From an uncultured Pseudomonadota bacterium (GTDB taxonomy: Bacteria > Pseudomonadota > Gammaproteobacteria > Burkholderiales > Methylophilaceae), in NCBI GenBank assembly GCA_903882525.1, contig CAIRXI010000078.1, forward strand, positions 1-39,043: DNA of 39,043 bases. The letters are read 5' to 3'. The first letter of the stretch is position 1; each line of letters begins with the position of its first letter. Below are positions 19,193 through 23,932 of the stretch, piece by piece. A program made the position numbers and the translations under genes. The notes beneath the pieces were generated by a model. The model was not told where the DNA came from, ran no database searches, and saw only the letters and a list, made by a program, of their open reading frames with translations.

Positions 19193-19238
19193 AAAAAAGT
19201 TATAATCGCAAAAAAATGAAAAGCAATTGCTAAAAATT

Positions 19239-20768
19239 ATGGAAATCATGACCCAATTAGACCCCAAAACACCCGCTGACAAATCGTTATTAGCCGCTAT
19301 AGACCTGGGTTCTAATAGCTTTAGATTAGAAATTGGACGTTTAGATAGCGGCCATATTCAACGCGTAGAGTATTTAAAGGAACCGGTACGCCAAGGTGGC
19401 GATTTAGATGAGGATCGCAACCTCACCGCAGAATCTATGGAGCGAGGTATCCGTTGCTTAGCTAGATTTGGTGAGCGTCTACAGGATTTTGAGCCGTCGC
19501 ATGTTCGGGCCGTAGCCACACAGACGCTTCGTGAAGCCAATAACCGTGATGTATTTCTTAAATTAGCAAAAAAAGCCTTAGGCTTTGATGTAGAAGTGAT
19601 TTCTGGTGTTGAGGAAGCGCGCTTAATTTACCAAGGTGTTAGTCGTTTTTTACCACAATCAGATGAGCGACGCTTAGTGCTTGATATTGGCGGACGCTCT
19701 ACCGAATTTATATTGGGCCAAGGCTTTAAAGCGCAGCAAACCGCATCTTTACATGTAGGCTCTGTCGCATGGTCGCTCAAACATTTTGGCTCCGGAGAAT
19801 TAACCGAAAATGCCTTTATGCGTGCTGAAATCGCCGCTGAATCTATTTTTGATACGCTCGGGGTGAATTTTAATCACAAGCGCTGGGATGTGGCTTATGG
19901 CGCATCAGGCACTGTGGGCGCAATTGCTGATGTTTTAGTACAGTACGGCCGACCTGAGGATACTATTACCAGAGAAGGCCTATATTGGCTTCGAGAAGAA
20001 CTACTTCGCAGCAACCATGTAGATAAGATTAAATTACTAGGTCTAAAAGAAGAGCGAAAACCTGTGATTGCTGGTGGCCTGTCCATTATGCTTGGCATCT
20101 TTGATTTCTTAAATATTGAAACCTTAAATGTAGCCAAAGGTGCGCTTAGGCATGGACTACTATACGACATGCTCGCGCGCGATGACGCCATGCTGGACTT
20201 AAGGAACGCTTCAGTAGAAAGATTGGCCAGTAAATTTGATGTAGATATAGCGCACGCGAAAATTGTGGCAGAAGTAGCCGAGAAGTTATTTGAAAAAATT
20301 GGTGTCGATATACAATTTTCCCCGGGTGAACAACAAGCCCATGCGCGTAAATTGCGCTGGGCTGGCTTACTGCACGAGATTGGCTGCGCGGTCTCACCGA
20401 TAGATGCACACCTCCATGGCGCTTACATTCTTGAGCATACCGACCCTCCAGGGTTTGCTCAAAGCGAACTACGCTGCCTAAGCTTATTAATACTAGGCCA
20501 CAGAGCAAAATTAAAAAAACTTGATGCCGATTTTTCAAACCGCATCTTTGTCATGCAGCTCTGTTGCCTGCGCCTTGCGGTAATTTTATGTCACGCACGC
20601 CAAATGCCTAATTTACGTGGCATACAACTCCATCTATTTGACAATAAAATTGTACTAAGCCTACCGAGAACTTGGCCTGAAAAGTACCCACAGTCTTATT
20701 ATCTCTTGGATGAAGAAACTGCCTCATGGCAGAAAACAAACTGGATATTTGAACTGAATACCATTTAA
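19239..20768 (+). CDS. ppx: Ppx/GppA family exopolyphosphatase
   Basis: LLAAIDLGSNSFRLEIGR, VLDIGGRSTEF, GASGTVGAIADVL. Exact start uncertain: ATG 19239 or 19248, TTG 19227 in the track. Confidence 0.92.
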   Translation: MEIMTQLDPKTPADKSLLAAIDLGSNSFRLEIGRLDSGHIQRVEYLKEPVRQGGDLDEDRNLTAESMERGIRCLARFGERLQDFEPSHVRAVATQTLREANNRDVFLKLAKKALGFDVEVISGVEEARLIYQGVSRFLPQSDERRLVLDIGGRSTEFILGQGFKAQQTASLHVGSVAWSLKHFGSGELTENAFMRAEIAAESIFDTLGVNFNHKRWDVAYGASGTVGAIADVLVQYGRPEDTITREGLYWLREELLRSNHVDKIKLLGLKEERKPVIAGGLSIMLGIFDFLNIETLNVAKGALRHGLLYDMLARDDAMLDLRNASVERLASKFDVDIAHAKIVAEVAEKLFEKIGVDIQFSPGEQQAHARKLRWAGLLHEIGCAVSPIDAHLHGAYILEHTDPPGFAQSELRCLSLLILGHRAKLKKLDADFSNRIFVMQLCCLRLAVILCHARQMPNLRGIQLHLFDNKIVLSLPRTWPEKYPQSYYLLDEETASWQKTNWIFELNTI

Positions 20769-20819
20769 TTACTATTAAGACCTACTTATAAATTTTTATT
20801 GCAATTCAAATTAAACGGT

Positions 20820-20841
20820 ATAAACTGTTTATATAGTTTAT
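20820..20841. promoter_or_regulatory. Operator-like inverted repeat ATAAACT-N8-AGTTTAT upstream of the H1-like gene
   Basis: Exact 7-bp arms; also contains TAAACTGTTTA palindrome; ends just before the AAGGAG Shine-Dalgarno. Confidence 0.55.
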
Positions 20842-20854
20842 TAAGGAGATTGTC

Positions 20855-21298
20855 ATGACAAAAAGAAAGCCAGCGAGACCTACAGCATTAAAACCTGCAG
20901 CGCCAAAAGTTACCCCAGCGCAAGTAAGTAAAACAGTTGTAGTAAAAACTGTTGCTGTAAAGCCTGCCGTCACTAAAGCCGCAATCGCTAAGCCCGCAGC
21001 GCCTAAAGCTGTTGCAAGCGTTACAAAAACTGCTGTTAAAAAAGTAGCGGCTCCTAAACCAGTTAAAATTGTAAAAGCACCTAAAGTAAAAATGGAGCGT
21101 GACAGCTTCACTATGCCTAAAGCTGAATATGCACAATTCCATGTGTTAAAAGAGCGCTTACAGAAACTGGGTAGCCCAGTGAAAAAAAGTGAGTTATTAC
21201 GTGCAGGGATTATGCAACTGAGTGCTATGACTGATGCCGCTTTAACCGCTGTGATGAGCAAAGTGCCGACGATTAAAACTGGCCGTCCGAAAAAATAA
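20855..21298 (+). CDS. Histone H1-like K/A/P-rich tail fused to a predicted ribbon-helix-helix-type C-terminal domain
   Basis: AAGGAG SD 8 nt upstream of the ATG; residues 1-80 contain repeated KPAAPK-like units; residues 81-147 (RDSFTMPKAEYAQFHVLKERLQKLGSPVKKSELLRAGIMQL...KTGRPKK) fit a strand-helix-helix pattern with SELLRAG. Confidence 0.8.
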   Translation: MTKRKPARPTALKPAAPKVTPAQVSKTVVVKTVAVKPAVTKAAIAKPAAPKAVASVTKTAVKKVAAPKPVKIVKAPKVKMERDSFTMPKAEYAQFHVLKERLQKLGSPVKKSELLRAGIMQLSAMTDAALTAVMSKVPTIKTGRPKK

Positions 21299-21311: not shown

Positions 21312-21347
21312 CGCGCGGCTTAGCTTTTCAATAAGTTTAGTCGCGCG
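21312..21347. terminator. GC-rich hairpin CGCGCGGCT-N18-AGTCGCGCG between convergent H1-like gene and sixA
   Basis: 9-bp stem including one G.U; overlaps the last codons of sixA; no U-tract. Confidence 0.4.
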
Positions 21348-21837
21348 GGTTGCGAACGGCGTACAGGTATGTCTGAGATTGTCCAAACATCAAACGCTGA
21401 CGTAGCCACCATACGGCGCCCTTCTTAACCACACACGCGCCTTCATTCATTCCAAGCAACTTAGCAATGACCCGTCCAAGGTTTGGCTGATGGCCAATAA
21501 GTAATAGCGTTTTACTGCTATCGTCATTAGCTACGTTCTTTACAATCATCTGTGCAGTGCTATCTACAGACAATAAATTCACAATCTGTACTGGATACTT
21601 CTTTCCTTCATACTGAGTATCAACTTCATCCAACTGCTGCAAAGCCGCTAAAGTTTCCAAGCAGCGCCGCGCAGGGCTACACAAAATCTCTGTATTGTCT
21701 GGCAAATGTTTATGTAACCACTTGGCCATCCTGTCAGCGTCTTTGAGACCACTCTTACTTAATGCCCGATCGGCATCTTTACCCGTCACACTATCTACTT
21801 CAGCGTCAGCATGACGCCATAAAATTAAATTAGCCAT
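21337..21837 (-). CDS. sixA: SixA-type phosphohistidine phosphatase (histidine phosphatase superfamily)
   Basis: LILWRHADAE catalytic His motif, SPARRCLETL, LLIGHQPNLG. Confidence 0.9.
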   Translation of the reverse strand: MANLILWRHADAEVDSVTGKDADRALSKSGLKDADRMAKWLHKHLPDNTEILCSPARRCLETLAALQQLDEVDTQYEGKKYPVQIVNLLSVDSTAQMIVKNVANDDSSKTLLLIGHQPNLGRVIAKLLGMNEGACVVKKGAVWWLRQRLMFGQSQTYLYAVRNPRD

Positions 21838-21862: not shown

Positions 21863-23932
21863 CTAATCTGCATATTTTTTAAGCAGCTGCTGCTGCGCAC
21901 TAAAGCTTAAATCTGCTCCGTTAGCTCTTCCAATGGGGACTGGAATTCTGGCATAAACGCCATCTGATCCGAGCAACCAAGAATCCTTATTGTCATCCAA
22001 ACTCATTTGGCAGCATTCAAGTAAAATACGTGCACGGTCATTGATGTTATCAATTGGCCATGCAATTTCAACCCGGCGCATCATATTGCGATTCATCCAA
22101 TCAGCGCTTGCCAGCCACATATTCTCTTCAGTATCAATTTTAAAATAGAATACGCGAGAATGCTCTAAGAGCCGGCCAATAATGGAACGTACACGGATAC
22201 GCCCATCCAGCCCCGGCGCATCCACTGGTAAAATGCAGGCACCGCGAATAATTAAATCCACTTCGACTCCAGCGCGCCCAGCTTTTACCAAGGCCTTCAC
22301 CAAGGCTTCATCGGTAAGCGCATTCATTTTCAAAATAATACTTGCTGGCTTACCTGCAATAGCCGCCAACTCAGCCGCTCTAATCTTGGCTAACATCTGC
22401 CGATGTAAATAAAATGGTGCTACCAAAAGTTTCTGCATACGGGGCAATTTAACCTGACTAGCAATATGCCTAAACAGATGCTCCATATCACGTGTAATTT
22501 GCACATCTGCCGTGAGCATACTGACATCCGTATACAAACGAGTGGTTCGAGGATTGTAATTGCCTGTAGATAAATGGCCGTAGTACTTGAGTCCAGCTTC
22601 TTCACGACGCATCACTAATAGCATCTTGGCATGCGTTTTTAAGCCGACAATCCCATACACCACTTGCGCACCTACAGATTCAAGCGCTTCAGCCCAGTTA
22701 ATGTTAGCCTCTTCGTCAAACCTAGCTTTAAGCTCGACCACCGCCATGACTTCCTTGCCTTGACGCACAGCCTCTTGTAGCAGCTTTAGCATGCGCGTAT
22801 CAGAACCTGCACGATAGATGGTTTGCTGTATCGATAACACATCTGGATCATTCACAGCTTCACGTAAAAAGTCGATTACTGATTCAAAACTTTCATAAGG
22901 CTGATGAATCAAAACGTTTCTCTGCTTCAACTGGCTAAAGAAAGATTGATTAGGTAACAACTGATGGCTAATTTGTGGCTCAAATGGCTTAAATTTGAGC
23001 TGACTACCTTCAGCCAAATCAGCCAACTGCATTAAGCGCGCTAAATTTACTGGTCCATGCACGCGATATAAGGACTGTTTAGGCAAATTGAATTGCTGCA
23101 ATAACATCTTAGCAAGCTTGTCATCACAACCATGTGACACCTCTAAACGCACTGCATCTCCAAAATTTCTATGCACCAAGCCTTTACGCAAAGCTGTGCG
23201 CAGATTCTTCACATCATCTTCATCGACGGACAAATCCGAGTGCCGGGTAACCCGAAACTGAGAGAAATTAAGCACTTCACGCCCATCAAACAGACTAGAT
23301 AAGTGAGCGCGAATCACGCTAGAAAGTGAAACAAACTTTTGCTGTTTATCACTTAAGTTCTTTGGTAACTTAATCAGACGTGACAACACTCGCGGCACTC
23401 TGACAATAGCAATATTATTGCTACGTCCAAAAGCATCACTCCCAGCCAGCGAAACAATAAAATTCAGTGATTTATTAGCTACCTGTGGAAAAGGGTGCGA
23501 TGGATCTAGTGCAACCGGAATCAATAAAGGCCGAACTTCCGACTCGAAATACTTTGCCACCCAACCGCGTTGCTGCAACGTACGCTCACCATGTGAGACT
23601 AAATGAACACCCTGCTCCGCTAAAGCCGGCATCAGTTCATTATTGAAAATGTGATATTGCTTATCGACTAGTGCGCGTGCTACGTTAGAAATCGACTCAT
23701 AACTTTGCACGGTAATATCGCCGTCCTGATCATCTTCGCGCATGGCATCTACATGCGGTGCGGCACGCACCTCAAAATACTCATCTAAATTTGAGGATAC
23801 GATGCATAAAAACCGCAGACGCTCAAGCAATGGGTATTCAGGATTTTGCGCTAACCCTAACACGCGTTCGTTAAACGCTAAAATGCTGGTGTCACGATTA
23901 ATAAGTTTTAATGGCGGGTAAGATTTGCGCAT
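21863..23932 (-). CDS. ppk1: Polyphosphate kinase 1
   Basis: FLCIVSSNLDEYFEVRAA, ALDPSHPFPQVANKSLNF, LKTHAKMLLVMRRE, HLSTGNYNPRTTRLYTD. Confidence 0.97.
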   Translation of the reverse strand: MRKSYPPLKLINRDTSILAFNERVLGLAQNPEYPLLERLRFLCIVSSNLDEYFEVRAAPHVDAMREDDQDGDITVQSYESISNVARALVDKQYHIFNNELMPALAEQGVHLVSHGERTLQQRGWVAKYFESEVRPLLIPVALDPSHPFPQVANKSLNFIVSLAGSDAFGRSNNIAIVRVPRVLSRLIKLPKNLSDKQQKFVSLSSVIRAHLSSLFDGREVLNFSQFRVTRHSDLSVDEDDVKNLRTALRKGLVHRNFGDAVRLEVSHGCDDKLAKMLLQQFNLPKQSLYRVHGPVNLARLMQLADLAEGSQLKFKPFEPQISHQLLPNQSFFSQLKQRNVLIHQPYESFESVIDFLREAVNDPDVLSIQQTIYRAGSDTRMLKLLQEAVRQGKEVMAVVELKARFDEEANINWAEALESVGAQVVYGIVGLKTHAKMLLVMRREEAGLKYYGHLSTGNYNPRTTRLYTDVSMLTADVQITRDMEHLFRHIASQVKLPRMQKLLVAPFYLHRQMLAKIRAAELAAIAGKPASIILKMNALTDEALVKALVKAGRAGVEVDLIIRGACILPVDAPGLDGRIRVRSIIGRLLEHSRVFYFKIDTEENMWLASADWMNRNMMRRVEIAWPIDNINDRARILLECCQMSLDDNKDSWLLGSDGVYARIPVPIGRANGADLSFSAQQQLLKKYAD

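Follow-up and report, generated by a model that had tools for sequence, protein, structure and literature searches.

AlgP of Pseudomonas aeruginosa is found on polyphosphate (polyP) granules, where its KPAA tail is required for granule spacing, and it is thought to tether the granules to the nucleoid (PMC9239181). According to a 2025 review, AlgP is the only protein that has been assigned a role in polyP-granule positioning, and the granule-positioning proteins of Caulobacter have not been identified (PMC13052382). For another storage polymer, PHB, the regulator PhaR leaves the phaP promoter once the polymer forms (PMC3079617). The protein family described here bears on the sensing, size and positioning of polyP granules. 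The sequence-only reading of one member had proposed a DNA-polyP tether or a polyP-responsive regulator, which is plausible by analogy with AlgP (PMC9239181) and PhaR (PMC3079617). Our main reading, to which we assign a probability of roughly 0.48, is that the protein may be an autoregulated, granule-associated polyP adaptor, that is, an autorepressor whose tail would bind polyP and which would tether the granule to the nucleoid.

The gene lies in the window, by which we mean the whole stretch of 39,043 nucleotides that was analysed, from an uncultured member of the Methylophilaceae (Table 1). Its open reading frame is intact, starts with ATG and encodes 147 residues. A spacer of 86 nt separates it from ppx on the same strand, and it converges on the sixA-like gene and ppk1. 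A K/A/P/V-rich tail followed by a non-repetitive half had been read from the letters alone, and the frame and the composition agree with that description; the placement of the gene between ppx and sixA-ppk1 was likewise borne out when the neighbours were identified by Pfam. The repetitive first half and an overlapping frame on the opposite strand (20806-21261) could suggest a low-complexity coding artefact. However, the opposite-strand frame draws no support from the pattern of domain conservation, the gene's own frame and its operator are retained, and the domain is strongly conserved, being found in 74 of 150 relatives. Because of this last observation, we consider the frame to be a real gene and not chance low-complexity sequence, and the probability of an artefact to be practically negligible.

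Table 1. Features of the 147-residue gene and its surroundings (positions are those of the window).
Feature	Position	Strand	Basis
147-aa gene, K/A/P/V-rich tail and RHH-like domain	20855..21298	+	ORF, conservation
Ribosome binding site AAGGAG	20843..20848	+	sequence
ppx (exopolyphosphatase)	19227..20768	+	Pfam Ppx-GppA
sixA-like histidine phosphatase	21337..21837	-	Pfam His_Phos_1
ppk1 (polyphosphate kinase)	21863..23932	-	Pfam PP_kinase
Palindromic operator-like site TAAACGGTATAAAC T GTTTATATAGTTTA, GTWTAWAC boxes, 9-bp period	20812..20840	.	upstream alignments, genome searches
H1-like basic tail, residues 1-79	20855..21091	+	composition conserved, sequence divergent
Conserved domain, residues 80-147	21092..21295	+	conservation across relatives
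Predicted DNA-contact strand RDSFTMP, residues 82-88, triad R82-S84-T86	21098..21118	+	alignments
Predicted helix A, residues 89-104	21119..21166	+	AlphaFold2, mean pLDDT 93.5
Predicted helix B with KSELLRAG, residues 111-123	21185..21223	+	AlphaFold2
Predicted extra C-terminal helix, residues 127-135	21233..21259	+	AlphaFold2
KTGRPKK terminus, conserved K-[TA]-G-R-P	21275..21295	+	family alignment

The family is widespread in Burkholderiales and has no curated family model, and among the open-licence papers searched we found none describing it. Of 399 genomes from the order, 97 carry the domain, whereas a class-wide draw of 276 genomes, order members included, contained only 8 carriers. Among the named carriers are Methylotenera, Methylophilus, Acidovorax, Hydrogenophaga, Ramlibacter, Polaromonas, Rhodoferax, Azonexus and Dechloromonas.

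On the evidence of profile comparison and a structural model, the domain behaves as a divergent member of the ribbon-helix-helix (RHH)-like type, in which the first helix is lengthened and one more helix follows at the C-terminal end. Searches of Pfam, NCBIfam, PHROGs and, as a single sequence, the PDB with the window protein returned nothing useful. No Pfam or NCBIfam model covers the domain, and the matches to ParD_antitoxin, RHH_1 and RHH_3 stay below the RHH cut-offs; one member alone gave an E-value of 0.12 against RHH_1, and single members reached 0.0025 for ParD_antitoxin and 0.0065 for RHH_1, still short of the Pfam cut-off. Profile-to-profile alignment was more informative. With an RHH_1 profile built from the RHH_1 proteins of relatives, the polyP-type homologues scored 20.8 in hhalign, compared with at most 12.2 in 40 shuffles and 12.0 for an HTH_3 control, and the addition of distant homologues raised the score to 26.5 and 28.8 (HTH control, 11.2). 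Column shuffles for the score of 28.8 reached at most 15.7 in 199 of 200 cases; the remaining one gave a bogus score of 129 over 14 columns at a terminal gap. A few shuffle runs in all scored near 130, of which one was inspected and proved to be this 14-column terminal-gap artefact, and all were set aside. The alignment register places RDSFTMP on the RHH ribbon strand and KKSELLRAG (SEL(L/I)RAG) on the second helix, and the top three matches of a PDB profile search were ParD RHH antitoxins (E-values 0.013-0.034). The AlphaFold2 monomer model, for which plasmid-collection sequences were left out of the input alignment, predicts, with a mean pLDDT of 93.5, an extended N-terminal segment followed by three helices. 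Relative to the RHH core, helix A appears about five residues longer. DSSP does not assign the ribbon strand in this model, as expected if the ribbon requires a partner chain, and three Foldseek searches of the monomer against the PDB and viral models gave no significant match, the ribbon needing a dimer. The strand triad R-S-T is present in 146 of 176 homologue loci; its role in DNA contact is one that we assume from the Arc/CopG register. The RHH assignment made from the sequence alone is thus supported by the profile scores, the ParD matches and the helical model, and left undecided by the structure search; membership of a curated RHH family is not supported, and because no Pfam or NCBIfam cut-off is passed we term the domain RHH-like. 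The terminal KTGRPKK, also singled out at that stage for its AT-hook-like core, is real and proved to be the conserved terminus (K-T/A-G-R-P) of the whole family.

Antitoxins of the ParD type head these weak matches in both the PDB and Pfam, so the protein might be a stray antitoxin of the ParD/CopG type whose toxin has been lost. However, its tail is long and basic, it is flanked in the window by ppx and, on the opposite strand, by sixA with no toxin gene alongside, and the genes that recur as neighbours of the family belong to polyP and phosphate metabolism rather than to toxins. We therefore regard an antitoxin origin as very improbable.

Residues 1-81 contain 18 lysines, 18 alanines, 15 valines, 11 prolines and 8 threonines, with a net charge of about +19. 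By composition the tail is of the lysine-rich, disordered KPAA type, with few true KPAA repeats; the window protein has two KPAAPK units. Within the genus, the mean identity of random pairs is approximately 84% in the domain (residues 80-147) and 42% in the tail, which is the pattern expected of a folded domain joined to a compositional tail. Across 133 homologues, the N-terminal tail is on average about 82% K/A/P/V/T/S and net basic. The arrangement is variable: in Hydrogenophaga and Sphaerotilus the order is swapped, with the domain first and the tail at the C-terminus, and Acidovorax homologues carry tails on both sides of the domain. Homologues in which the RHH-like domain comes first and a KPAA-type tail last (L121, L125, L144, L036, L140) lie mostly in the same ppx/ppk1 locus. 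Because the tail has been rearranged while the neighbourhood was kept, the comparison argues that the attachment of a tail to the RHH-like domain has been under selection. Some homologues apparently have no long tail, and a few of these, such as L148, are possibly artefacts of the start codon or of a contig end. In most Methylotenera homologues (L004, L008, L012 and others), the variable tail is preceded by a conserved N-terminal motif, MSKINxxQAxALK, which is degenerate in the clade of the window (MTKRKPARPTALK).

When the sequences preceding the gene were aligned within the genus, a palindrome, TAAACGGTATAAACTGTTTATACCGTTTA, became apparent just 5′ of the ribosome binding site. The window copy has two mismatched pairs and is the only occurrence in its genome. 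Exactly one palindrome per genome was found in 47 of 52 genus genomes, a reversed control pattern gave no match, and comparison with the gene positions places the palindrome shortly before the gene, apart from cases in which a contig ends at this point. The substitutions seen in several genomes are symmetric (AACAGTATAAACTGTTTATACTGTT is one example), which is what the site of a dimer would show. Across families, the site takes the form of tandem GTWTAWAC boxes with 1-nt spacers, and a double box (at most two mismatches, within 700 bp upstream) precedes 133 of 176 homologues, compared with 0 of 412 control windows. It is also present at 28 of the 39 loci that are not linked to polyP genes, and the tail-less homologue L110 has the box too. 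Of 25 genomes searched whole with a longer pattern, 14 gave a match, which in 13 of them lay only at the gene's own promoter; beyond it, the search for a wider regulon in these 25 genomes yielded one off-target site. The RNA-structure reading of the palindrome was rejected, because it has no Rfam match and its 1-nt centre is unsuited to an RNA hairpin. A sigma-70 promoter scan found nothing. Allowing up to two mismatches, the box is present at 2 of the 10 loci with the triad R-S-A and at 118 of the 146 with R-S-T; its usual loss with R-S-A is probably due largely to one clade.

The candidate site has the form of a short symmetric or tandem operator at the gene's own promoter, as is typical of RHH proteins. 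Autoregulation by way of the RHH-like domain is the best explanation of this pattern, which we take as strong sequence-level evidence for it, because the operator-like site stands at the gene's own promoter across homologues, including loci without polyP genes. That the protein is an RHH autoregulator is highly probable.

The sequence-only reading also implied that homologues should be enriched near ppk1 and ppx. This holds for most loci: 141 of 180 contain one or more genes of the set ppk1, ppx, ppk2, CHAD, phoU and pst, whereas none of 20 arbitrary regions of carrier genomes has a polyP or phosphate marker. It does not hold universally, since the other 39 loci have none of these genes. Among the best 80 named loci, 68 have ppx or ppk1. 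In a sample of 82 loci from 20 families, mostly with one locus per genome, the linked cases comprised 51 loci in 10 families, and the other 10 families had no polyP marker nearby. Loci that lack ppk1 and ppx often carry PPK2 with PhoU, CYTH-CHAD, or PstSCAB-PhoU, and a plasmid copy in Caballeronia adjoins a CHAD gene and pstS. CHAD domains are described as specific polyP binders (PMC6537752). The linkage to polyP and phosphate genes is strong, and it is neither universal nor exclusive; the genes conserved around the unlinked homologues have no common theme. Co-occurrence with Ppk1 was rejected as evidence, because in the 399 genomes Ppk1 is nearly universal and does not discriminate: it is present in 92 of 97 carriers and in 269 of 302 non-carriers. 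In two domain-carrying genomes, neither PPK1 nor PPK2 was detected. We judge a polyP-related function of the protein to be somewhat favoured.

Further variation was observed at individual loci. At L123, L132, L139, L168, L187, L188, L194 and L196, which include Rhodocyclales, the homologue adjoins pstSCAB-phoU instead of ppk1/ppx, and in several of these homologues the strand motif is changed to RDSYAMP and the operator boxes are weaker. Two genes, one for a C39-peptidase/TPR protein and a small one resembling that of a membrane protein, are inserted between the RHH gene and sixA in some Methylotenera (L071, 7931-9321 on the minus strand; L082, 10396-11783 on the minus strand).

The neighbourhood bears on a simpler explanation, namely that the protein is a plain autoregulated H1-like nucleoid protein whose tail binds DNA only, and whose location next to polyP and Pst genes reflects shared phosphate-starvation control or old synteny rather than polyP binding. 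KPAA peptides do bind DNA (PMC9239181), and half of the sampled families are unlinked to polyP genes. In addition, a Pho-box-like element, TGTCAYAAAAAATTCA, with an 11-bp period is present upstream in 17 of 38 Methylotenera loci and absent in the window; it may reflect control by PhoB. However, the linkage recurs with different partners in different families (ppk1/ppx, ppk2, CHAD, pst/phoU), and old synteny alone is therefore insufficient to account for it. We consider this nucleoid-protein explanation rather unlikely.

A second explanation arises from kinship with plasmid partition loci. Nine distant homologues adjoin a gene of the ParA family, on Piscirickettsia and Calothrix plasmids and at seven further loci, and the 9-bp array recurs at the par locus of Piscirickettsia as GTTTAAACTGTTTAAACTGTTTAAGC. 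A ParA-like gene was found in 22 of 204 homologue loci, some of them polyP clusters, and in 0 of 20 control regions. In the polyP clusters of Methylophilus and at three other Burkholderiales loci (L174, L190, L195), it is the immediate neighbour of the RHH-like gene; it lies inside several Methylotenera clusters and stands alongside CHAD at L044 and L174. An iterated upstream site combined with an RHH-like domain and a disordered-type tail, as in proteins of the ParG type, is what we found here; ParG itself combines an RHH fold with a disordered N-terminal tail and acts as a repressor of its own operon (PMC7308502). The protein could therefore bind both DNA and cargo on behalf of a ParA-type ATPase, as a plasmid partition protein that polyP clusters have captured, in which case ParA would position polyP granules or the granules would be tied to the ppk1 locus. 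Against this, a nearby ParA gene is missing from the window and from the majority of polyP-type loci, the assembly to which the window belongs (88% complete) contains no close ParA-like orthologue, the ParA-like family is just as familiar a sight in genomes that lack the RHH-like gene, and the array adjoins the gene only, as a plain operator would. We regard such a partnership as distinctly unlikely. Because the window cluster has no ParA and the ATPase family is common elsewhere, par kinship is a lead and not our main reading. A related and quite improbable version would have a plasmid-type partition module recruited to polyP clusters, with granule positioning driven by ParA or anchored to the locus; in most lineages, including that of the window, the ATPase would then be absent or would act from elsewhere, and the RHH protein with its H1-like tail would be the adaptor that was kept.

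Loci at which a ParA-like ATPase lies inside or next to a polyP cluster, or next to the RHH gene, include L031 (7517-8137, minus strand), L032, L085 and L099; L073 (7040-7672, minus strand), L065, L076 and L079; and L174, L190, L195 and L044. Beside the ParA-like gene, a similar protein of 80-84 residues is encoded on the minus strand at L099 (2875-3120), L032 (6998-7243), L073 (7726-7980) and L076 (7103-7348); the L073 copy has no Pfam match, and the protein is a possible partner of the ATPase. The par-locus homologues L293 (Calothrix plasmid), L056, L308, L309 and L310 share an N-terminal stretch resembling K-x-A-L/I-x-x-S/G-L/I-K-A-E, which was not seen in the polyP-type proteins and is possibly a ParA-contact peptide.

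The adaptor mechanism that we infer as our main reading comprises DNA binding, repression, polyP binding, titration and tethering. The C-terminal domain would dimerise as an RHH fold and bind the tandem GTWTAWAC boxes upstream of its own ribosome site, repressing its own gene only, while the disordered lysine-rich tail would bind polyanions, both polyP and DNA, without sequence specificity. When Ppk1 makes polyP, the tails would bind the granule and the protein would be drawn off the operator; the freed operator would allow more protein to be made, and the granule would become coated and held to the nucleoid. Once the polyP is consumed, the released protein would switch the gene off. The titration mechanism is a tentative part of this reading, on the doubtful side of even. 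The protein is nevertheless a good candidate for a polyP-granule sensor or anchor, and with a precisely defined operator beside polyP genes, a possible polyP-responsive circuit is directly testable.

The operator-like site at the gene's own promoter, the kinship with par loci, and the homologues with a swapped domain order or no tail are additions to what was first read from the sequence. The family suggests how a plasmid partition protein could have evolved into a protein of storage granules. Its divergent RHH-like domain, the candidate operator, the H1-like tail and the linkage to polyP genes form an unstudied combination of known elements. With the Burkholderia histone H1-like family NF038053 of NCBIfam, the window protein shares a basic low-complexity composition, and it matches that model with 9 bits against a cut-off of 80. 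Like AlgP of P. aeruginosa, it has an H1-like, K/A/P-rich disordered tail and a link to polyP; however, AlgP carries its KPAA tail at the C-terminus of a predicted helical N-terminus, whereas here the tail comes first and is followed by an RHH-like domain with its own operator (PMC9239181). In the proposed logic, the protein resembles PhaR, an autoregulator and repressor titrated by a storage polymer (PMC3079617), although the DNA-binding domain and the polymer are different and titration here would be a presumed property. The proposed tether between granule and nucleoid, with a histone-like basic part, recalls PhaM and PhaF (reviewed in PMC13052382), which serve PHB/PHA granules and have a granule-binding partner domain where this protein has an RHH-like one. 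ParG and similar RHH centromere-binding proteins (PMC7308502) share with it a disordered N-terminal tail, a C-terminal RHH domain and repeated boxes, and the likeness extends to autorepression, putative in our case, and to the distant homologues beside ParA. Unlike ParG, the window protein is chromosomal, has a long H1-like tail, and lies in a polyP neighbourhood whose cluster contains no ParA.
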